A DNA stretch of 20,142 bases from a virus: IMG/VR virus record IMGVR_UViG_3300021379_001388, positions 1 to 20,142 of that record; one strand, given 5' to 3'. Position 1 is the stretch's first letter, and each line of letters opens with the position of its first letter. Position numbers and translations under genes: made by a program. Below, piece by piece: positions 2,070 to 20,142 of this stretch. The notes beneath the pieces were generated by a model. It did not search any database and had not been told where the DNA came from. It was given only the letters and a program-made list of their open reading frames with translations.

Positions 2070-2253
2070 CGGTGGTGATTGTGTAGTTCATCTCCTCGAG
2101 GAGTTCCTTCAGGTGCTGCGTAAGGAACACCGACCCGACCGTGCGTACCCCTGCGTGGGTTTGGATGCGCCTGTCCAGGGCGTTAGCCAGCAGGCGGATG
2201 GGGGTGGGGGATTCGTAGTATTCCTTGAGGTGTTGCGGTAGTTGCTTGCTCAT
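2062..2253 (-). CDS. Hypothetical 63-residue protein
   Basis: I chose the ATG at 2253 (MSKQLPQHLKEYYESPTPIR), preceded by CAATACAATCACA, over the longer frame from 2337, because the extra part lies in the methyltransferase C-terminus. The ATG overlaps the methyltransferase stop as ATGA. The product is short and helical with a Thr-rich end. No family is recognised. Its tight coupling to the methyltransferase may only reflect the general packing of this arm. Confidence 0.6.
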   Translation of the reverse strand: MSKQLPQHLKEYYESPTPIRLLANALDRRIQTHAGVRTVGSVFLTQHLKELLEEMNYTITTDE

Positions 2254-3119
2254 TGTGATTGTATTGCTCGAAATATTTGATATGCTACCTGTGGCACGAT
2301 GGCGTTCCCGTATGCCTTTATGCTTTCTCGTCTCCACTTTGGAAAGGTGATGCCGTCCAGTTCGGTGGGAAGCCCATCATCTCCTCCACAAAGAGGGGGG
2401 ACAGATGGGAAGTCTTCCCACGTTCTGGGTCGTGCATAGCATAAGCCAGCGTATCCCTCTGTCTCTTCGGATCGGTTCGAGTCGCGCCCCCCTTTGGGTC
2501 GCTGGTCGCTGATGGGGTCGGAAGCATTCCCGCCGCTGCTCTGTCCTTTAGAGTCAGGCTGTACCCAAGGTCGTTGGCTTTCCCGTCCTTCGGCTTCCTC
2601 GCTCCCCCTCCGTTCCCGTCCCATGCCACTGGCGTTGGTAGCCACAATCCAGATCCTGTCCCTGCGGTGCGGGGCGTTGACACCTGCAGCTGGAAGAACG
2701 GTCGGGAAGACTTCGTAGCCTTCACCTTCCAAGTCAGCGCACACCGTGTCGAGAACCATCCCGTCATTCCAACTAAGCAGACCGCGAACGTTCTCTGCCA
2801 CGACCCAGGTGGGGCGAACTTCTCGAACAACCCTAAACATTTCCGGCCAGAGATATCTATCGTCGGATGTCCCTCCCCGCTTTCCTGCTGCACTAAAAGG
2901 TTGGCAGGGGAAGCCACCTGAAATGATTTGTACTCGTCCTCGAAACGGAGTTGCGTCGAACGCTTTGATGTCGTCATATGATTTTGATTTGGGGAAGTGA
3001 TGTGTCAGTACATGGCGGCAGAAGGGATCGCGCTCCACGTGGAAGACGTTCTCCCACCCCATCCACCTTGCGGCGAGGTCGAACCCACCGATGCCAGAGA
3101 AGAGGGAGCCGTGGTTCAT
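2250..3119 (-). CDS. C5-cytosine DNA methyltransferase (Dcm-like)
   Basis: The 289-residue enzyme carries the ordered motifs of C5-cytosine methyltransferases: motif I SLFSGIGGFD (residues 5-14, AdoMet binding), motif IV GGFPCQPFS (68-76, catalytic Cys72), motif VI ENVRGL (109-114), motif VIII HRRDRIW (151-157) and motif X AYGNAIVPQVA (269-279). The variable target-recognition part between 160 and 235 is short and polar. The C-terminal WEDFP...CGGDDGLP...LDGITFPKWR block is typical of phage members. It transfers a methyl group from AdoMet to cytosine in a sequence I cannot predict. No restriction partner is visible, so it is probably an orphan enzyme protecting phage DNA. The length is near normal for phage members. 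Starts and stops overlap the neighbours as ATGA. Confidence 0.95.
   Translation of the reverse strand: MNHGSLFSGIGGFDLAARWMGWENVFHVERDPFCRHVLTHHFPKSKSYDDIKAFDATPFRGRVQIISGGFPCQPFSAAGKRGGTSDDRYLWPEMFRVVREVRPTWVVAENVRGLLSWNDGMVLDTVCADLEGEGYEVFPTVLPAAGVNAPHRRDRIWIVATNASGMGRERRGSEEAEGRESQRPWVQPDSKGQSSGGNASDPISDQRPKGGRDSNRSEETEGYAGLCYARPRTWEDFPSVPPLCGGDDGLPTELDGITFPKWRRESIKAYGNAIVPQVAYQIFRAIQSQ
2318..2977 (-). other. Overprinted ORF inside the methyltransferase gene (+1 frame)
   Basis: A second frame on the same strand, shifted by one base, stays open for 219 codons inside the methyltransferase gene. Its product has a structured motif set: LTWKVKATKSSRPFFQLQVS, TGTGSGLWLPTP, a second LPTP (GMLPTPSATSD), and near the end SPLFVEEMMGFPPNWT. 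From memory, proteins with the same string order (TWK.K.TK...FQL, GTGSGL, LPTP repeats, MGFP..WT) are predicted in many Bacteroidota phages and prophages. By back-translation these strings are the shifted reading of conserved methyltransferase motifs. It is therefore either a real overprinted gene or a widely copied annotation artefact. No independent start signal is visible. Confidence 0.3.
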
Positions 3120-8825: not shown

Positions 8826-9034
8826 TGAAAGCAAAGAAGTACCAAGACGGGGGGAAACCCCGCAGAAAAGTCACCAAGGGGGAGTACGACATCGAAATAG
8901 ATGGGGTGACGTACATCATCCCAGCGAAGATGGTGGAACAGATTCGTCGTGACGGGACGGTCAGGAAGCGCAAGTTCGTCTCCCGATCCCCTGTAGCGAA
9001 AATCAAGGACGTAACAAAGTTTCCGAAGCAGTGA
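8825..9034 (+). CDS. Small basic protein, 69 residues
   Basis: A short, strongly basic product (MKAKKYQDGGKPRRKVTKGE...) with a central EYDIEIDGVTYIIPAKMV strand block. The KKYQDGG start resembles small phage proteins that carry a K-x-Q-x-G-G head. The ATG overlaps the previous stop by one base and its own stop overlaps the next GTG start, so the three genes are translationally linked. No family name. Confidence 0.65.
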   Translation: MKAKKYQDGGKPRRKVTKGEYDIEIDGVTYIIPAKMVEQIRRDGTVRKRKFVSRSPVAKIKDVTKFPKQ

Positions 9035-11901
9035 CTGGGGACCCGACAAAGTACCCCGAGTGGTATAAGCGCTTCCTGCGTGGGGTAGCCCAAGTAGAAT
9101 CGGCGGGGGGACAGCTTATGATGAACCCCTCTTCTACAGCTACTGGGCTGTACGGCCAGCTATATAGCGAAGTAGAGGACCTCCCGATGCTCAAAGGAGT
9201 AAGCAGGGAGGCATTCGCTGCAGACACTGCCCTGCAGAACAGGATAATGGAGCAGCGGTTCGAAGGGAACATCCCTGGGGTCCCAGGGCTGATGAAGAAC
9301 GTTATTGACCTCACCCGCGAGTACAAGCCGCAGCTAGGGGAGAAGTTCACCTTCCGCCCCGACGAGGTCGCCGCCCTGACAAACTTCCTTGGTAGACAGC
9401 GTACGCGGGAGTACTTTGCTTCCATTCGGGACGACAAACCTTTTGAAGTCCCTGGGGTGAACAAGACCCCCGAGGAGTACCTGAAGGAGTACAACCTTGG
9501 TTTCGGGGAGGAAGTAGAGGAACAGCCTCGAGAGAGAAAGGTCAGCGAGGAGCTGCAGAACGCCTTCGATATCCTCCAGCGCGACAACCGCTTCGGGGGG
9601 AGGGTGAAGAAGAAGAAGTACTACAATGGGGGGATGCTCACCAAGAAGGACCCTACCCTAGTCCCTGACCCCCCTGAAGACCCACCGTCAAACGACATAC
9701 TCGCTAGGCTGTCTTTAGGTATCACCCCTCCTGATCAGCAGTTCAGGCTTCGCGGTGGTGACGCACCGTTCCGTACCGTAAAGGAGCAGAAGGACGTCAT
9801 AGCGGAGCAAGAGAGCGAGGGGGATATCATGGAGGTGCTGCGCTACCTCCCAGTAACTGGTGAGGTTATTGACGCCGCCGAGCTAGCCAAGGTAGCCGCT
9901 ACAGGGAAGGACATCTACGGACAGGAGCAGGACCCCACTACGTTCGCTGCTATGACGGCGGCGGGGTACCTCATCCCGAACGTTCTTGAGAAGCCGCTGA
10001 AGAGTGCGTGGAGGGCAGTGAAGCAGTTCCCAGCTAAGATGCCGAAGAAGGAGTTCAGGGAGCTGATGGGGCCAGAGAAGGACCAAGCTCGAGCAAACCT
10101 GATCAAAGGCCACCTAGAGGTATACGGGGACAAAGGCTACACCAAGTCGCTGAGCGGCGCCCGACCTGTCAACGTACGCCAGCTCCCGTCGCTGATGGCA
10201 GGGAGTAAGCTCGAGAACGCCGTAGGCAAGGACGGGATGATTCAAGTCTCTCAGATTGAGAACCTCATCAACAGCAAGGACATCTCCGCAGCCGAGCGCG
10301 AGGCCCTGCAGGAGGTGATGGGGACTGAAGCCTTCCAGACCCTGCGTGAGATGGGGGGTGAGAGTAAGGTGGACTACAACAAGTTCAGGGACCTTACCTC
10401 TGGTCAAGTGTCTGTACACCATGACACGTACATGGATCGTACTAACGAGTACGCAGACTATGGGGTAGATAGGTTAGGTGTGGAGACGGTTGAAGGCTCC
10501 CCTCGCGCTAACCTTATCCGCACCAAAGACCCTGAGTTGCAGTCTACTGAGTACGGTCACTATGGAACTGACGTCATCGGGCACTACCGCACCTTCGAGC
10601 GACCTGACGAGAAAGGGGTGCTGTACATCTCTGAGCTGCAATCCGACCCGCTCCAGGCCCGTGGCCCTGCAGGGAAGAAGGAGGTGGGGCTCAGTTTTCC
10701 TAAGCAGCTTAGCGAAGACGACGTAGCAAGAGAACTACAAGTTGCTAAGAAGCAAATTGAATTTGCTGAGCTTGCAAAGAAACAGATTGCAGAGGGGAAG
10801 AGTCCTCAGGCTTCTATAAGGGAGGTACTTAAAGAAATGCCTGATAGGGATGTATTTACTGACATCACCTCTGAACGCATGATTGACACATCGCCGAACT
10901 ATGGGATTCTGTACGATTACGACTCTTCAAGATTCCCAACGAAAGACACATCGGTACCTATACAGATGGACGGCTTGATTAGGAAGAACAACAAGTACAT
11001 CAAAGCCCTAGAGGGCGGGTATCGCGGTGGTCCGAACCCTAAGCAAGCCAACCTTATCAAGAACCAGGACCAGTTCCTTATCTCTCACATCCTCGAGCAA
11101 GAGGCGAAGGGGGCAGACAAGCTCCGCTTCCCGACTGGTGAGACGACGAGCAAGATTCAGGGGTATAGGGATATTGAAGCTCAGGTTTCCCGCTCTCGCC
11201 GCGACCTCGAAACAGAGCAAGGGGCGCTGGACGCTATGATGGAGGAGCTCGATACTGTAACTGGAAAGACAGTACGATCCCCCCTTGCCGACCGCGTAGA
11301 CGCTATGGGGTTGAGTGGGATGGATGCAGACAAAGCCATAGACTACTTGGGTAGGGTGAGGACGGCTAGGAGTCTTGGTCACACTAATCCAGTTTACAGA
11401 GAGCAAATCGAGAAGTTCGACAACGACGCTTTGAAGCAGGCCTATAAGGAGCTCAAAGCGATGACCCCTGAAGACCGTCAACTGGAAATCAACTTCCACG
11501 GGGGGACGATAGAGAAGGCGGCTGAGCGAAGGGCCATTGACATCAAGAAGGATATTAATAGCTGGAATGAACAGCTTGAAAGAATCCAAACCCGCAAAGA
11601 ACACCTAGACAGAGTCAACGCCTCCACCCAAGCCACCCAAGGCATTATGAAGGGGTACGACCGCCTCCCGAAGGCTTTGAAGAAGCACGGGCTGGATGCC
11701 ACCAAGGTTACCGACGACGCAGGCAACACCTGGTGGGAGGTGGACATCCCTGCTCGCCTCGGGGAAGGGGTTGGGGAGATACGCGCCTACCGCAAAGGGG
11801 GGCAGGTGTCTGACAAAATCCGTGTGCTGAAGAAAGAGGGGTACCCGCAGAAGCAGGCGGTAGCGATTGCGCTGGCTATGAAGCAAGAGGGTAGACTTTA
11901 A
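9031..11901 (+). CDS. Large multidomain virion protein with lytic-transglycosylase-like N-terminus
   Basis: The 956-residue product starts at GTG 9031, overlapping the previous stop (GTGA). Residues 12-45 (FLRGVAQVESAGGQ, then STATGLYGQL) match the SLT-type transglycosylase pattern of a catalytic Glu (E23) before Ser/Ala-Gly and the S-x-A-x-G-x-Y-x-Q motif, suggesting local peptidoglycan opening at DNA entry. The middle carries GVLYISELQSDPLQ (about 528-541) and, at about 682-708, ISHILEQEAKGADKLRFPTG, the two halves of a module I recall from very large phage 'polyvalent' proteins (E-x-Q-S-D ... G-A-D-x-L-x-F-P-T-G). A coiled region follows (712-880). The end, SDKIRVLKKEGYPQKQAVAI, is a tail found in many marine phage proteins. 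Between the two module halves lies a more A/T-rich stretch. Confidence 0.7.
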   Translation: MTGDPTKYPEWYKRFLRGVAQVESAGGQLMMNPSSTATGLYGQLYSEVEDLPMLKGVSREAFAADTALQNRIMEQRFEGNIPGVPGLMKNVIDLTREYKPQLGEKFTFRPDEVAALTNFLGRQRTREYFASIRDDKPFEVPGVNKTPEEYLKEYNLGFGEEVEEQPRERKVSEELQNAFDILQRDNRFGGRVKKKKYYNGGMLTKKDPTLVPDPPEDPPSNDILARLSLGITPPDQQFRLRGGDAPFRTVKEQKDVIAEQESEGDIMEVLRYLPVTGEVIDAAELAKVAATGKDIYGQEQDPTTFAAMTAAGYLIPNVLEKPLKSAWRAVKQFPAKMPKKEFRELMGPEKDQARANLIKGHLEVYGDKGYTKSLSGARPVNVRQLPSLMAGSKLENAVGKDGMIQVSQIENLINSKDISAAEREALQEVMGTEAFQTLREMGGESKVDYNKFRDLTSGQVSVHHDTYMDRTNEYADYGVDRLGVETVEGSPRANLIRTKDPELQSTEYGHYGTDVIGHYRTFERPDEKGVLYISELQSDPLQARGPAGKKEVGLSFPKQLSEDDVARELQVAKKQIEFAELAKKQIAEGKSPQASIREVLKEMPDRDVFTDITSERMIDTSPNYGILYDYDSSRFPTKDTSVPIQMDGLIRKNNKYIKALEGGYRGGPNPKQANLIKNQDQFLISHILEQEAKGADKLRFPTGETTSKIQGYRDIEAQVSRSRRDLETEQGALDAMMEELDTVTGKTVRSPLADRVDAMGLSGMDADKAIDYLGRVRTARSLGHTNPVYREQIEKFDNDALKQAYKELKAMTPEDRQLEINFHGGTIEKAAERRAIDIKKDINSWNEQLERIQTRKEHLDRVNASTQATQGIMKGYDRLPKALKKHGLDATKVTDDAGNTWWEVDIPARLGEGVGEIRAYRKGGQVSDKIRVLKKEGYPQKQAVAIALAMKQEGRL

Positions 11902-13476: not shown

Positions 13477-13632
13477 ATGGTGCAGGCGGTGTACGGGATG
13501 AACATCAAGGACGACGAGGAGCTCGACGACGTCTTGGATTTCTTCAAGCACGTATACCATAGCAACAGGGACGTGGGGGACGAACCCGACTGGGGGGACT
13601 TCTTAGATGGATTCGGGATAAGCCTGAACTGA
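13477..13632 (+). CDS. Hypothetical 51-residue acidic protein
   Basis: This frame encodes MVQAVYGMNIKDDEELDDVL, continues with DFFKHVYH and a very acidic end (DEPDWGDFLDGFGISLN). Its stop overlaps the next ATG (TGATG), supporting a real, coupled gene. No family is recognised. Confidence 0.55.
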   Translation: MVQAVYGMNIKDDEELDDVLDFFKHVYHSNRDVGDEPDWGDFLDGFGISLN

Positions 13633-13868
13633 TGGATGGGTTGATTAGAAAGATTGTCTTGGGGAGCAACCCTAAGGACGCGATGGCATACTACGTCGGT
13701 ATGCGTGCAGGGAGTGGGGAGGTGACTGCTATCGTCCACGACGAGGCCTACTTGCACAAGTTCAGCTCGTCTAGATACCTTGTGTATATTCAGACCGAAG
13801 ACGGGGTGGTGCTATGGAAGGCCATTGAGTCGCTCCCCTGCGTAGTAGAATACGACTTGAATTTTTAA
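13632..13868 (+). CDS. Conserved phage protein of unknown function, 78 residues
   Basis: The product (MDGLIRKIVLGSNPKDAMAY...) has the pattern I-R-K-I-V-x-G-x-x-P-K-x-A-M-x-Y-x-V-G and ends with W-K-A-x-E-x-L-P-C-V-V-E-Y-D. I recall similar small proteins in Bacteroidota phages, often beside structural genes. It is a beta-rich domain; no function is known. It shares one base with each neighbouring gene (TGATG, TAATG), so it belongs to the same transcript as the tandem co-chaperonin-like gene. Confidence 0.7.
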   Translation: MDGLIRKIVLGSNPKDAMAYYVGMRAGSGEVTAIVHDEAYLHKFSSSRYLVYIQTEDGVVLWKAIESLPCVVEYDLNF

Positions 13869-14449
13869 TGAAAACATTTGACCTGTTCGTCGTGGAGCTA
13901 AAGAAGCTCACCAACGACACCATCACCACAGACAGCGGACTGGAGCTGTACGTAGACACCAAGTACAACGAGTTCGAGCACAGGGTAACCGAAGGGCCTG
14001 TCGTTGCCGTCCCGTTCAAGTACGACACGGGGGTGAGCGTAGGGGATACGCTGTACTTCCACCACCTTGTGGTGATGAACGAAGGCCAGCCCCTGACGGG
14101 GGAGGACAATCACTACCTCGTACGATACACACCAGAACATACAGTGAACAACCAAGCCATCGCCTACAAGAACAAAGAGGGGGAGATTTCTCCGCTCGGG
14201 GGGTGGGTGCTCCTGACCCCAGTGGAGGAGGACGCCCCGACGCAGGATACTAGCATCGAGGTCGTGAGCTTCTCCACCCCGACGGTAACCAAGGGGAGGT
14301 TGGCGTTCTCTACTAAGGAGACCCAGGACCTGAGCATCAAGGAGGGGGACGTGGTGGGGTTCCCTGTCAACCGCGACTACAGCATCGTTATCGACGGACA
14401 GGAGTACTACCGTGTACGCAACGAGGACCTGCTGTATGTCGAGGAGTAA
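13868..14449 (+). CDS. Tandem GroES-like co-chaperonin
   Basis: The 193-residue product looks like two GroES folds in one chain. The second half (107-193) is clearer: SPLGGWVLLTPVEEDAP, a polar loop, GRLAFSTKETQDLSIKEGDV, then IVIDGQEYYRVRNEDLLYVE, which follows GroES from its first strand through G-D-x-V to the D-G-E-x-Y-x-x-x-R/E-x-D-I/L-L end. The first half (5-90) repeats the order: LFVVELKKL, a loop with GLEL, GPVVAVPF, GVSVGDTLYF, HYLVRY. Each half has a possible hydrophobic tripeptide in the loop that contacts GroEL. It would cap the host chaperonin to fold phage virion proteins. Tandem GroES chains are known in chloroplasts (Cpn20). A single ordinary GroES is 95-100 residues. Confidence 0.7.
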   Translation: MKTFDLFVVELKKLTNDTITTDSGLELYVDTKYNEFEHRVTEGPVVAVPFKYDTGVSVGDTLYFHHLVVMNEGQPLTGEDNHYLVRYTPEHTVNNQAIAYKNKEGEISPLGGWVLLTPVEEDAPTQDTSIEVVSFSTPTVTKGRLAFSTKETQDLSIKEGDVVGFPVNRDYSIVIDGQEYYRVRNEDLLYVEE

Positions 14450-14726
14450 GTTCACCACCGTCTCTGCCGCGCAGAGGCTGATGGCGAGCATGGAGGTGGC
14501 CATCAACAACATGATTGAGGAGGTCAAGAAGCCTGTCGATCCTGAGCTCTCAGGGGCAGGGAGGAAGGCGGAGCTCTCGAGCATCAAGCAGACGGCGGTG
14601 GACTGCAAGGAGCTCCTTGTAGAGCGCCAGCGGCTAGAGCAGATGGTGAAGGACCTCAAAGACAGCGGGGAGATAGCTCAGGAGAAGGACTACTCTGGCG
14701 GCTTTGCTGAGCGGTTTAGCAAGTAA
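14436..14726 (+). CDS. Helical coiled-coil protein, terminase small subunit candidate
   Basis: I chose the ATG at 14436 (MSRSKFTTVSAAQRLMASME), since the earlier start at 14412 only adds residues inside the co-chaperonin gene. The product is 96 residues, all helical and charged (AELSSIKQTAVDCKELLVER, then QRLEQMVKDLKDSGEIAQEK). Genes of this kind and size lie ahead of the HNH and terminase genes in many phages, and a DNA-binding small subunit would have this size. No helix-turn-helix is evident, so this is a positional suggestion only. Confidence 0.5.
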   Translation: MSRSKFTTVSAAQRLMASMEVAINNMIEEVKKPVDPELSGAGRKAELSSIKQTAVDCKELLVERQRLEQMVKDLKDSGEIAQEKDYSGGFAERFSK

Positions 14727-15070
14727 TGGGGTACAAGAACAAGGAGGACCAAAGGGCTGCTTCGCGCCGCAACTACGAGAAGCACAGAAAGAAGTACATC
14801 AGTACCGCCAAGAACAGGAACTCAAACCAGTACCACATCAACAAGGAGTTCGTCAACAGGGTTAAGTCATTTGCCTCTTGCGTAGACTGTGGGGAGGGTG
14901 ACCCTATCGTCCTTGACTTCGATCACGTAAGAGGGGAGAAGCGAGGCAACGTTTCTGATATGGTTAGATGCTATTATTCCATAGATAGCATTAAAAACGA
15001 GATGCGCAAGTGCCAGATAAGATGCGCTAATTGCCACAGAAAAAGAACATTTGAAAGGAGAAACTCCTAA
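14726..15070 (+). CDS. HNH endonuclease
   Basis: The 114-residue product has a basic N-terminus and then a zinc-bound HNH domain: CVDCGEGDPIVLDFDHVRGE (first Cys pair 52/55, catalytic Asp66-His67), KRGNVSDM, and KCQIRCANCHRKRTFER (Cys100, Cys103, His104). HNH proteins next to the terminase genes are known to work with packaging nucleases (HK97 gp74 type), but homing-type HNH genes are also common. The codons of the second half are more A/T-rich than those of the neighbours, which may favour the mobile option. The ATG overlaps the preceding TAA. Confidence 0.85.
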   Translation: MGYKNKEDQRAASRRNYEKHRKKYISTAKNRNSNQYHINKEFVNRVKSFASCVDCGEGDPIVLDFDHVRGEKRGNVSDMVRCYYSIDSIKNEMRKCQIRCANCHRKRTFERRNS

Positions 15071-15495: not shown

Positions 15496-15599
15496 CGCTC
15501 CTGCTTGTCTGCGTCGCTTTCATCTGCACCACCTGTACTTCTAACAAGCACTGCGAAAGCTACGCAGAGGATATGGGGGTGTTTCATAAGCTGTCGTGA
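15474..15599 (+). CDS. Short signal-peptide or lipoprotein-like peptide, 41 residues
   Basis: This frame encodes MATKGILTLLLVCVAFICTT followed by a Cys-rich, polar tail (CTSNKHCESYAEDM...). It begins within the end of the preceding lipoprotein gene (22-base overlap in another frame) and ends overlapping the GTG start of the terminase. The hydrophobic N-terminus and Cys18/Cys21 resemble a lipoprotein signal, though the lipobox is weak. Two overlapping exported peptides just before the terminase recall spanin-type pairs, but neither has the usual inner-membrane anchor and coiled coil. Confidence 0.55.
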   Translation: MATKGILTLLLVCVAFICTTCTSNKHCESYAEDMGVFHKLS

Positions 15600-17728
15600 C
15601 CCTCGTAGAACTCGAGGAGTATACAGAACCTGGGGTAGCAATATGCCCCAATGGAACGCAGGGCCTCGTTGAAGAAATCGGCGGGGTAGTCATAGTACTG
15701 CCCAAGCGCCCCGCAAAAAGCAAGATTCTGTTCCACGACCTCCCCAAGCAGGATCAGTACTGGAGGAGGGGGGAGATGCCCAAGGAGCTGCAGAGGCTCA
15801 AGAGCATGGACGAGTGGGGGGAGTCCCCGAAGGAGTTCCGCGACCGCTTCCGCCCGTACATCGAAGAGGAGTTCCGCCGCCGCAGGGAGGGGGTGTGGTT
15901 CTACAACCACGGCGTCCCGACATACATAACGGGGAGGCACTATATGGCGTTGCAGTGGACCAAGTTCGATATCGGGTACCCGAACTATCTGGAGTTCCAG
16001 CGCACCATCTTCATACACATGGCCGCCTGCGAAGCCGACCCACGGTGCATAGGTCAGCTCTACACCAAGTGCAGGCGCTCGGGGTACACGAACATATGCT
16101 CTTCTGTGCTGCTCGACGAGGCCACACAGGTGAAGGACAAGCTGCTCGGGATACAGAGCAAGACGGGTAAGGACGCCCAAGAGAATATCTTCATGAAGAA
16201 GGTGGTGCAGATGTTCCGCCACTACCCGTTCTTCTTCAAGCCCATACAGGACGGCACCACCAACCCGCGTATGGAGCTGGCCTTCCGCGAACCCTCCAAG
16301 CGCATCACCAAGAACAACAAGACCACAAAGTCAGGGGACGCCCTCAACAGCATCATCAACTGGAAGAACACCACCAACAACGCTTACGACGGGGAGAAGC
16401 TGCACATGCTCTACCTCGACGAGGCGGGGAAGTGGGAGAAGCCTGTCGATATCCGTGAGGCGTGGAGGATAGAGCGCACCTGCTTGATTGTGGGTAGGAA
16501 GGTGGTTGGGACGGCGCTGGTGGGGAGCACCGTAAACCCTATGGATAAAGGGGGGAGCGAGTACAAGGACTTGTGGATGGACTCCGACCCCGATCAGCGC
16601 AACGCAAACGGACGCACCCGCTCGGGTTTGTACAGGCTGTTCATCCCAGCGTACGATGCGCTAGAGGGATTTTTTGACGTGTACGGGAGGCCCGTAGTCG
16701 ACGACCCCGAGGAGCCCGTGGTCGGGATTGACGGGGAGTACATAGAGTTCGGGGCCAAGACGTTCCTGAAGAACGAGAGGGACAGCCTCAAGAGCGATGC
16801 CTCGGAGCTGAACGAGGTGGTGAGGCAGTTCCCGTTCACCGAAGACGAGGCCTTCCGCGACAGCGTCGACGGGAGCCTGTTCAACGTCGGGCAGATATAC
16901 GAGCAGGTAGAGTACAACGACGACCTGTTCCCCAACCCTGTCGTTAGAGGCAACCTCATATGGAAAGAAAACAAGAAGGACGAGGAGGTCGTGTTCTCCC
17001 CCGACCCGAAGGGGAGGTTCTACGTCTCGTGGTTACCCCCTGTAGAGACTCGGAACGTAAAGAAGATGGAGTACGGGAAGCTGGTCCCCCCATACCCGCA
17101 GTTCGGTTGCGGTGGTGTTGACTCCTACGACCTCGACGCTACGCTGGACGGGAGGGGGTCGAAGGGGGCGCTGCACCTGTACAACAAGTTCACTATGGAC
17201 GACGGGAGGCTGAGCAACACCTTCGTTGTGGAGTACGCCTCGCGCCCCCCGCTAGCCAAGATATTCTACGAGGACGTGCTCATGTGCGCGTTCTACTACG
17301 GGTACCCCATCCTGATTGAGAACAACAAGTACGGGATAGCGAGGTACTTCGAGGATCGCGGATACGACGGGTATCTGATGGGGAGGCCCGACCACCTCAA
17401 GGTCCCTGGGAGCCACAGCAACGTAAAGACCAAGGGGGTGCCGTCAAACTCTCAGGACGTCATCCACGCCCACGCGCAAGCCATCGAAGCCTTCATCCAC
17501 GAGCACGTCGGGGTGAACAGGGAGACGGGGGAGATGGGGAAGATGTACTTCAACCGCACGCTAGAGGACTGGGTGGGGTTCAAGATTGACAAGCGTACCA
17601 AGTTCGACTTGACTATCAGCTCGGGGCTAGCCCTGCTTGCCGCACAGAAAGGGAAACCTATCAAACCCCCAACAAATTTTGCTGAGAAGAGGTTCTTTAG
17701 AAGGTACAAAGGAATTAGCAGAGTTTAA
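15596..17728 (+). CDS. terL: Terminase large subunit
   Basis: The 710-residue protein is the packaging motor ATPase and nuclease. The Walker A region is non-canonical, TKCRRSGYT (157-165), where most terminases have GRGSGKT-like strings. Walker B is LHMLYLDEAG (269-278, with Asp275 and Glu276), and the coupling motif is GSTVNP (310-315). The nuclease half shows its acidic residues in GCGGVDSYD (Asp509), ILIENN (Glu575) and KFDLTISSG (Asp671). In between are the conserved stretches YPFFFKPIQDGTTNP and QFPFTEDEAF. The length is in the upper part of the usual range. The start is GTG 15596, overlapping the previous stop (GTGA). The portal gene follows, the normal order in tailed phages. Confidence 0.9.
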   Translation: MTLVELEEYTEPGVAICPNGTQGLVEEIGGVVIVLPKRPAKSKILFHDLPKQDQYWRRGEMPKELQRLKSMDEWGESPKEFRDRFRPYIEEEFRRRREGVWFYNHGVPTYITGRHYMALQWTKFDIGYPNYLEFQRTIFIHMAACEADPRCIGQLYTKCRRSGYTNICSSVLLDEATQVKDKLLGIQSKTGKDAQENIFMKKVVQMFRHYPFFFKPIQDGTTNPRMELAFREPSKRITKNNKTTKSGDALNSIINWKNTTNNAYDGEKLHMLYLDEAGKWEKPVDIREAWRIERTCLIVGRKVVGTALVGSTVNPMDKGGSEYKDLWMDSDPDQRNANGRTRSGLYRLFIPAYDALEGFFDVYGRPVVDDPEEPVVGIDGEYIEFGAKTFLKNERDSLKSDASELNEVVRQFPFTEDEAFRDSVDGSLFNVGQIYEQVEYNDDLFPNPVVRGNLIWKENKKDEEVVFSPDPKGRFYVSWLPPVETRNVKKMEYGKLVPPYPQFGCGGVDSYDLDATLDGRGSKGALHLYNKFTMDDGRLSNTFVVEYASRPPLAKIFYEDVLMCAFYYGYPILIENNKYGIARYFEDRGYDGYLMGRPDHLKVPGSHSNVKTKGVPSNSQDVIHAHAQAIEAFIHEHVGVNRETGEMGKMYFNRTLEDWVGFKIDKRTKFDLTISSGLALLAAQKGKPIKPPTNFAEKRFFRRYKGISRV

Positions 17729-17757
17729 TATATTTGCATTTGACGACAAGTAGTCGT
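17729..17757 (+). promoter_or_regulatory. Rightward promoter before the portal gene
   Basis: TATATTTG (17729-17736) begins right at the terminase stop and is a perfect -7 box. The expected transcript begins near ACGAC (17743-17747), which pairs with GTCGT (17753-17757) across a 5-base loop to form a small 5'-end hairpin just ahead of the ATG at 17761. Confidence 0.5.
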
Positions 17758-17760
17758 AAT

Positions 17761-20142
17761 ATGCAGAACTCCAACACAAAATACTCCTCCAACTTTCCTG
17801 ACCCTATGGTCCCGAAGGAGAAGAAGGAGAAGAAAGAGTACGGGCTGCGCTACGCCAAGGCCATAGAGAAGCAGTGGGGGAACGCCGACGACTACAACTC
17901 GCTGTTCAGGAAGAGGCAGAAGATATTTGAGCGCAACAGGGACTATGCGAACGGGACACAGGATACTACGGTTTACAAGCAGATACTTACTAGCCTGGAC
18001 CCTAATAACGGGGATGGGAGTCTTGTTAATCTTGACTTCACCCCTGTTCCCATTCTGGCTAAATTCGCACGAATTGTCACCAACAAAATCCTCTCGCGCT
18101 CTCCTTACCCGAACCTGGAGGCGGTGGACCCGCTCTCTTCGTCAGAGAAGGACGCGCAGAAAAGGATGATGCAGATGCAGGTCGCGGCACGCGACGAGCT
18201 GATTGCACTCAAGCAGGAGACAGGGGGGCTGACGATTGGGGACGATCCCGAGCAGCTCCCCGAAACACTCGAGGAGGCAGAGATTCTCTTCGAAACCAAC
18301 ATCAAGACCGACGCAGAGATAGCTGCTCAGGTGGCTACTAACATGACGTTGGAGTGGAACAACTTCGACGACAACACCTACCGCCGCTGCGTGTCTGACC
18401 TGACTGCCATCGGGATGGCGGTAACCAAGCGCACCAACGACCCGAACTACGGGGTGAAGGTGGAGTACGTAGACCCAGGGGCGTTCGTGCACAGCTACAC
18501 CGAGGACCCGAGCATGGACGACCTCGTCTACGCAGGGCACGTGAAGCGCATGACTATCAGTGAGCTGAAGCGCCTCGCTGGGGACGAGCTCTCCGAGGAG
18601 GATTTGAAGAAGATTCAGAAGGCCTCCAAGAAGAACAAGCAGGGGGACTACTCCTCACCGAACGCCACCTCGTACGACCACTTCACGGGGAAGTACTCTT
18701 CGGGGTACGACGAGTACATGGTGGAGGTGCTGTGCTTTGAGTTCGTCTCCGTAGACACGATGTACTTCGAGGAGAAGGAGAATCGCTTCGGGAACACGGG
18801 GTTCTTCTATCAGGGGTACAGCTACAAGGAGAAGCCCAACAGCGTGTTCTCTCGCACCCCGCATAAGATGGAGGTCGAGAACGTGTACACGGGGATGTAC
18901 GTCATGGGGACGGACTTTTTGTTCAACTACGGGCTAATGACCAACATGCCCAGGAACATGCACGACCTCTCCCGCACGCGGATGTCGTACTCCCCTGTGG
19001 CAACCAACATGCGGGACATGGTCCCCAAGTCGCTTGTCGATAGCTGCATCGGGTTTGCTGACATGCTTCAGCTCACCCACCTCAAGCTGCAGCAAGCTAT
19101 TGCCAAGGCCAAGCCCGACGGATTGATTATCGACATCGAGGGGCTGGAGAACGTACAGCTCGGAAAGGGTGGGGAGCTGCAGCCCTTGGAGCTGCACGAC
19201 ATCTACGAGCAGACGGGGGTGTTCTACTACCGAAGCAAGAACCCCGAGGGCGGGTTCCAGAACCCACCAGTCAGAGAGATTGGGAATGCCATCCGCAACG
19301 TCAACGAGCTCATCGGGCTGTACAACCACTACCTGCGTATGATCCGTGACGCTACGGGCATTAACGAGGTTATGGATGCCTCCACCCCGAAGGGGGATGC
19401 CCTGGTTGGGGTGAGGGAGCAGGCCCTAGCTGCAGGGAATAACGCCATCTACGACGTCACCAACTCCTCTATGATTCTTTTCAAGAAGGTGTGCGAGGAC
19501 GTAGTGAAGTGCCTGCAAGTCCTGCCACGGGAGAGCGTAGTGTACAGGGTGTATGAGAACGCCATCGGGAAGACGAACATGAGCGTGCTCAACAGCTTCG
19601 GGAACCTCCCCATGTACAACTTCGGGGTGACGGTGCAGAAGGAGATGGAGGATATTGAGAAGGCGTACCTAGAGCAGAACATCCAGGCCTCCCTCGCTCA
19701 GAAGGAGCTGGATATTGAGGACGCTATCGCCATCCGCAACATGAAGGACATCAACCAGGCCGAGAGGCTGTTGGTTGTGCGCCGCAAGAAAAGGATTCAG
19801 CGCATGCAGCAGATGGCTCAGCAGAACGCCCAAGTCCAGTCCGAGCAGGCACAGCAGGCCGCACTGGTGGCTTCGCAGGCCAAGCAGCAGGAGATGCAGA
19901 TGGAGGCGCAGCTCGAGGCGCAGACCCTGCAACTCAAGAACGAACTAGAGATGCAGCTTGAGGCCGTCAAGCACCAGTACCGCAGGGAGATTGAGATGAT
20001 TCGCGCTCAGGCTACCCTCGGATTCCGTGAGGACGATCAGAACTTCCGCGAGAAGATTGAGGTGTTCAAGGAGGGGAAGAAGGACCAGCGCGTAGACAAG
20101 CAGAAGGAGGCGCAGAAGGAACTCATTGCAAAGCGTAAGGGG
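17761..20142 (+). CDS. Portal protein, C-terminus beyond the window
   Basis: The frame is open for 794 codons to the window end. The N-terminal half contains the portal-like stretches of Bacteroidota phages: VNLDFTPVPILAKFARIVTN, QVATNMTLEWNNFDDNTYRR, VKVEYVDPGAFVHSYTEDPS, KSLVDSCIGFADMLQLTHLK and the clip-type DATGINEVMDASTPKGDALV, followed by GVREQALAAGNNAIYD. From about residue 620 a long Gln/Glu/Lys-rich coiled coil runs to the end. It forms the ring at the capsid vertex through which DNA is packaged and ejected. The position just after terL supports the call. I recall similar long portals with coiled-coil tails in crAss-like phages; this relation is not tested. Confidence 0.82.
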   Translation, partial: MQNSNTKYSSNFPDPMVPKEKKEKKEYGLRYAKAIEKQWGNADDYNSLFRKRQKIFERNRDYANGTQDTTVYKQILTSLDPNNGDGSLVNLDFTPVPILAKFARIVTNKILSRSPYPNLEAVDPLSSSEKDAQKRMMQMQVAARDELIALKQETGGLTIGDDPEQLPETLEEAEILFETNIKTDAEIAAQVATNMTLEWNNFDDNTYRRCVSDLTAIGMAVTKRTNDPNYGVKVEYVDPGAFVHSYTEDPSMDDLVYAGHVKRMTISELKRLAGDELSEEDLKKIQKASKKNKQGDYSSPNATSYDHFTGKYSSGYDEYMVEVLCFEFVSVDTMYFEEKENRFGNTGFFYQGYSYKEKPNSVFSRTPHKMEVENVYTGMYVMGTDFLFNYGLMTNMPRNMHDLSRTRMSYSPVATNMRDMVPKSLVDSCIGFADMLQLTHLKLQQAIAKAKPDGLIIDIEGLENVQLGKGGELQPLELHDIYEQTGVFYYRSKNPEGGFQNPPVREIGNAIRNVNELIGLYNHYLRMIRDATGINEVMDASTPKGDALVGVREQALAAGNNAIYDVTNSSMILFKKVCEDVVKCLQVLPRESVVYRVYENAIGKTNMSVLNSFGNLPMYNFGVTVQKEMEDIEKAYLEQNIQASLAQKELDIEDAIAIRNMKDINQAERLLVVRRKKRIQRMQQMAQQNAQVQSEQAQQAALVASQAKQQEMQMEAQLEAQTLQLKNELEMQLEAVKHQYRREIEMIRAQATLGFREDDQNFREKIEVFKEGKKDQRVDKQKEAQKELIAKRKG

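Follow-up and report, generated by a model that had tools for sequence, protein, structure and literature searches.

A predicted tandem GroES-like co-chaperonin gene lies upstream of the terminase and portal genes

The window, the whole 20,142-nucleotide stretch of DNA analysed here (IMG/VR record IMGVR_UViG_3300021379_001388, positions 1 to 20,142), probably comes from a marine phage with a Bacteroidota host. Positions 13868–14449 of the plus strand hold a genuine gene, with an ATG start, for a predicted tandem GroES-like co-chaperonin, identified by its open reading frame and by matches to phrog_13932 and Pfam Cpn10, and translation of this frame returns exactly the 193-residue protein of the original prediction. 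The phrog_13932 profile ('co-chaperonin GroES') spans residues 1–192, corresponding to profile positions 1–199 of 200 (E = 2.6e-43), and relatives at 60–98% identity align over residues 1–192 or 1–193 and share the same start methionine. Both halves of the gene are under purifying selection, with NG86 dN/dS values against three relatives of ~0.04–0.07 for the N half and 0.12–0.21 for the C half; within clade A, the pairwise identity is 73% for the N half and 60% for the C half. With 193 residues and two domains, the protein differs from single-domain co-chaperonins of ~110 residues of the T4 gp31 type.

The gene is flanked by two genes for 78-residue proteins to which no function is assigned. 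The upstream one (13632–13868, +) overlaps the start codon of the co-chaperonin gene by one base and lies within 0–0.44 kb upstream in 147 loci, while the downstream one (14490–14726, +) is found in 146 of 237 loci and has no detectable similarity to gp097 of Cellulophaga phage phi18:3. Further downstream are an HNH endonuclease gene (phrog_2255; 14726–15070, +), which is present in only 26 of the 237 related loci and looks mobile, a possible lipoprotein gene, the gene for the terminase large subunit (15596–17728, +; phrog_6681, E = 2.3e-204), and the portal protein gene (17734–20142, +; phrog_6547, E = 3.1e-189), which runs off the window. In all 186 loci in which both genes are visible, the terminase gene lies 0.28–3.5 kb downstream of the co-chaperonin gene on the same strand. 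The gene had been placed in a phage from its sequence, a context that stands.

Elsewhere in the window, two long open reading frames on the minus strand (2250–3119 and 2318–2977) overlap almost fully in different frames. One frame matches phrog_363 and the Pfam C5 methylase family (E = 2.7e-74 and 7.4e-45, respectively), while the other matches phrog_1008 (E = 2.1e-22); both are DNA-methyltransferase families, and the pair is possibly a case of overprinted genes. A frame for 956 residues (9031–11901, +), shared by just 18 of the 237 related loci, has weak family matches only, and its start resembles a transglycosylase. The window contains no tRNA gene.

The C domain is a GroES domain

The C domain (residues 105–193; 14180–14446, +) is clearly a GroES domain, as recognised by Pfam, NCBIfam, a profile search of the PDB, and hhalign. 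Specifically, PF00166 (Cpn10) matches residues 139–189 with 27.2 bits, above the curated cut-off of 21.1, and Pfam Cpn10 is matched in 38 of 40 relatives at E-values up to 1. The NCBIfam GroES models match the C half consistently, with low scores that fall below their own cut-offs. A search of PDB sequences with the family profile finds Thermus thermophilus Cpn10 at an E-value of 7.5e-7, and alignment by hhalign of the C-half profile with a GroES alignment (26 Bacteroidota sequences plus those of Escherichia coli and T. thermophilus) gives 97.9%. Sixteen controls with shuffled columns, eight for each half, and the reversed controls all stay under 2%, and the shuffled controls of the C-half comparison under 1%. 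Two other identities, MazE/AbrB (matched by Pfam in 16 relatives, best E = 0.0018) and, for the C half, a designed double-psi barrel, were dropped because the GroES models score higher there.

The N domain is predicted to adopt a diverged GroES-like fold

The N domain (approximately residues 1–102; 13868–14173, +) is accepted, mainly on structural grounds, as a GroES-like β-fold domain that is far more diverged than the C domain. AlphaFold predicts the N half alone with a pLDDT of 82, and when this model is compared with 350,542 PDB chains, GroES chains occupy the first seven places (probability 0.63–0.80), although with weak E-values of 0.16–0.25. The only recurring sequence signal is phrog_3188, a family of single-domain phage GroES, which matches 19 of 42 homologous N halves (best E = 0.00096) and weakly matches that of the window in register (E = 0.005). 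None of the 42 N halves matches Pfam Cpn10 or any recurring Pfam family, and hhalign gives no useful signal for the N half against the GroES alignment (4.4%) or, more broadly, against GroES and the C half (1–9%). A profile search of the PDB with the N half returns no GroES and only matches at chance level, HadA hot-dog enzymes among them.

The original prediction of two GroES-like domains thus holds for the C half by sequence and for the N half by predicted fold, with weak sequence support for the N half. Of the half-by-half profile comparison that it proposed, the C half came through and the N half did not, whereas the proposed structure prediction of the monomer did yield a GroES-like N half. 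The motifs that it named in the N half are present, and the strand order and register there fit GroES.

The N domain also contains a conserved GDTL-(Y/L)-x-HH-x-V stretch, the two histidines of which are residues 65 and 66 (14060–14065). The histidine pair is kept in at least 90% of 62 sequences, is absent from GroES, and is lost in the Cellulophaga phages. A role in metal binding or in the roof of the dome is possible, and the conservation of the pair hints at an added or different role for the N domain.

The full-length model resembles chloroplast Cpn20

The full-length protein was modelled by AlphaFold2 with an alignment of 62 homologues, drawn only from IMG/VR and genome loci, yielding a pLDDT of 86 and a pTM of 0.82. 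The sole segment with a pLDDT below 50 comprises residues 128–133, within a loop of the C domain. In a Foldseek search of the PDB, the first match, and the only one below 1e-3, is chain R of 7ekq, a chloroplast Cpn20 (E = 8.6e-5), which aligns with the predicted monomer over 211 columns with a TM-score of 0.54 and an rmsd of 7.7. The likeness to Cpn20 noted from the sequence is thereby recovered in the model. Single-domain GroES chains match about one half of the model, reaching only ~0.25–0.32 of the query, and the named two-domain match in BFVD is the cpn10 of phi18:3.

Between the two domains, the secondary structure of the model shows a strand at residues 97–101, a short turn, and a strand at residues 107–109 (14156–14194, +), interpreted here as a hairpin. 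Neighbouring subunits of a GroES ring are joined by strand pairing, in which the C-terminal strand of the first meets the N-terminal strand of the second. The linker hairpin may be equivalent to this inter-subunit strand pair, and would then make the two domains neighbours within a single ring, consistent with the match to Cpn20. We accept the protein as a probable tandem of two GroES-like domains, the first of which is assigned mainly from structure.

Both domains carry candidate GroEL-binding loops

The mobile loop of GroES bears a hydrophobic tripeptide. This loop contacts GroEL (PMC5780408). In the N domain, a loop at residues 17–31 (13916–13960, +) contains a conserved G-[LIV]-E-[LF] motif, GLEL in the window, which is comparable to the mobile-loop motif of GroES (SGLYIP/GGIVL) and may serve a like function, as judged from motif counts and alignments. 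In the C domain, a loop at residues 120–140 (14225–14287, +) is predicted to be disordered, contains a conserved I-E-V-V motif, and is a candidate GroEL-binding mobile loop.

Across the clades, most N domains, and nearly all of those among the 62 sequences, retain a G-[LIV]-E-[LF]-like motif. For the C loop, the window clade shows IEVV-like motifs, the Cellulophaga phages show IYIP, and a contig binned as Ekhidna shows LHVP. The Bacteroidota GroES sequences fetched for comparison usually have GGLYIP or SGLYIP in this loop, and the C loops of the Cellulophaga phages (LIYIPEDNKEK, with LIYIPED in phi18:3) and of the Ekhidna-binned contig (FLHVPDTYK) are near to Bacteroidota GLYIPDT. The window clade has a hydrophobic motif in both loops, whereas in a freshwater clade the C loop is shortened to KKPxSEEP, with the hydrophobic motif missing in 14 of 14 rows of alignment A2, and the N-loop motif persists. 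The loss of the C-loop motif in the freshwater clade, together with the strong divergence of the N half, suggests that the two domains may be unequal.

Relatives occur in three genome states

The tandem gene is present on hundreds of viral contigs and is common in this phage group. A tblastn search of annotated phages returned ten records, all with ~22–23% identity over 98–99%, comprising eight Cellulophaga records (Pachyviridae in the three looked up), Maribacter phage Panino, and a Manatee Spring podovirus. IMG/VR contributed 561 relatives from one scan, and 540 for the freshwater clade. A search for the same architecture in other phages had been proposed, and these sets supply it. A genome collection contributed two relatives, on a Flavobacteriales-binned contig and on the Ekhidna-binned contig, the latter having the same gene order and a terminase 62% identical. 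Since the relatives lie in Bacteroidota phages and binned contigs, the hosts are probably Bacteroidota.

The related genomes show three states. The window clade, represented by 12 contigs of 48–65 kb, has the tandem gene alone; neither GroEL nor a second GroES was found on the 12 contigs, although a very diverged single GroES might escape such a search, and a tblastn search of the window-clade genomes with the single GroES of Panino gave no match, which is uninformative alone. Three of these genomes look complete, being bounded by exact direct terminal repeats: 90 bases in G005, 123 in G006, and 31 in G009. The Cellulophaga phages have the tandem gene and a separate 84-residue GroES, which in phi18:3 is gp080, and no GroEL was found in them. 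The freshwater clade and Panino have the tandem gene, a single GroES, and a phage GroEL.

Two genes annotated as hypothetical in relatives were also assigned. In Caudoviricetes sp. MW202828.1 (locus L084, 8001–8564), the gene upstream of the terminase encodes a tandem co-chaperonin of the phrog_13932 family (E = 3.8e-21), and Panino CDS0109 (locus L239, 6129–6395), beside the phage GroEL gene, is an unannotated single-domain GroES (Pfam, 34.8 bits).

Proposed function as a lid for GroEL

The protein is probably a tandem co-chaperonin like Cpn20, with the task of capping GroEL in the service of phage morphogenesis. In this reading, the short β-hairpin links two GroES-fold domains and would make them neighbours within a single ring of the lid. 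Flexible hydrophobic loops would dock on host GroEL or, in related phages, perhaps on phage-encoded GroEL, and the lid would close the folding chamber, leaving the chaperonin tuned to putative clients among the phage head and packaging proteins, as for T4 gp31. The predicted disorder of the C loop is as expected of a mobile loop, and the tandem gene coexists with phage GroEL in Panino and in the freshwater clade. Against this reading stand the marginal sequence likeness of the N domain to GroES, the weak E-values of its structural match, the loss of the C-loop motif in the freshwater clade, and a histidine pair that GroES lacks.

An unlikely alternative is that capping of GroEL falls to a single domain of each subunit, through one working mobile loop, the other domain being reassigned, for example to holding a client of the packaging module or to stacking above the ring; in that case, seven-fold GroEL would accept seven subunits without a mismatch. 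The unequal conservation of the halves in clade A, the freshwater loops (C motif gone, N motif kept), and the conserved histidines of the N domain favour it, but the best structural match has both domains in the Cpn20 arrangement, and neither loop has lost its hydrophobic motif in the window clade. We regard it as improbable that the N half is a small β-barrel of an unrelated kind, which would leave one GroES domain carrying an additional domain instead of a tandem: the absence of Pfam Cpn10 from all 42 N halves, the hhalign values, and the PDB profile search would allow it, but the seven leading GroES chains in the fold search, the phrog_3188 matches, of which that to the N half of the window is in register, and the match of the full-length model to Cpn20 with both domains argue against it. 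That the protein is no lid, its GroES fold having been recruited for head assembly, for packaging, or as a component of the virion, is also improbable, since, despite the fixed position before terminase and portal and the diverged N half, GroES-like loops are kept, phage GroEL and GroES co-occur in related genomes, and the structural proteins neighbouring gp096, the phi18:3 homologue, are marked as detected by MS/MS in virions while gp096 is not, a weak point because low abundance looks alike.

If the protein is indeed a Cpn20-like lid, its fit to seven-fold GroEL becomes a question. The 7ekq entry, from Chlamydomonas, contains one Cpn11, one Cpn23, and two Cpn20 chains, giving seven GroES domains; as this ring holds one single-domain and three two-domain chains, phages with both genes could build the same. 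It is thus conceivable, though doubtful, that phages have evolved a chloroplast-type lid, with three tandem chains and one single GroES forming a mixed seven-domain ring where both genes occur, and with the tandem protein of the window clade either acting alone, as a lid of six or eight domains over seven-fold GroEL, or borrowing a host GroES subunit. Such borrowing, if true, would mean a hybrid lid and phage control of the host chaperonin. The natural combinations of tandem alone, with single GroES, and with GroES and GroEL make the question of lid fit testable in bacteria. A further suggestion from this case is that flavobacterial phages reshape the chaperonin of the host to assemble their heads.

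Comparison with known co-chaperonins

The gene family itself is already known, since phrog_13932 and GenBank name relatives GroES or cpn10. Its members in Pachyviridae (Cellulophaga phi18:3 gp096, phi19:3 gp101, and phi46:3 gp092) and Panino CDS0088 are full-length homologues with 22–23% identity over ~98%, likewise located before terminase and portal; the Cellulophaga phages and Panino differ in having a separate single-domain GroES, and Panino also GroEL, whereas searches of the window clade detected none of these. Homologues of GroEL and GroES specific to the phage are noted in the Panino paper, which does not mention the tandem layout (PMC11590407). No paper on tandem GroES in phages was found in the open-licence literature, where only the tandem layout seems unremarked; what is new here is its spread over hundreds of viral contigs, the fixed site upstream of terminase, and the three genome states.

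Bacterial GroES (Bacteroidota, E. coli, T. thermophilus) is single-domain; the phage C domain matches it along its whole length, whereas the N domain is barely recognisable as such by sequence. T4 gp31 (1g31) and the single-domain co-chaperonins of phrog_3188 are likewise phage-encoded GroES folds with a presumed role with host GroEL in folding head proteins, but T4 gp31 has one domain, forms a heptamer of seven chains, and is a weak fold match to the tandem protein (E = 0.28).

Previous descriptions of the two-domain layout come chiefly from chloroplasts of plants and from the malaria parasite. Like the phage protein, Cpn20 of chloroplasts and the apicoplast (Arabidopsis thaliana, Chlamydomonas CPN20/CPN23, Plasmodium falciparum) has two GroES-like domains head to tail; the identity is 14%, and neither Cpn20 domain approaches the divergence seen in the first domain of the phage protein. 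Because Cpn20 is a eukaryotic organelle protein, convergent fusion is more likely than descent. Cpn20 by itself works with E. coli GroEL (PMC3542282, PMC5780408), so tandem lids are functional in principle, and the deposited 7ekq complex is ClpP protease associated with the Cpn11/20/23 ring (PMC8889267), so GroEL is not the sole target open to rings of this kind. Chloroplast Cpn20 raised the question of how a paired-domain lid serves a seven-fold chaperonin, and these phages look like an independent and widespread case of it.
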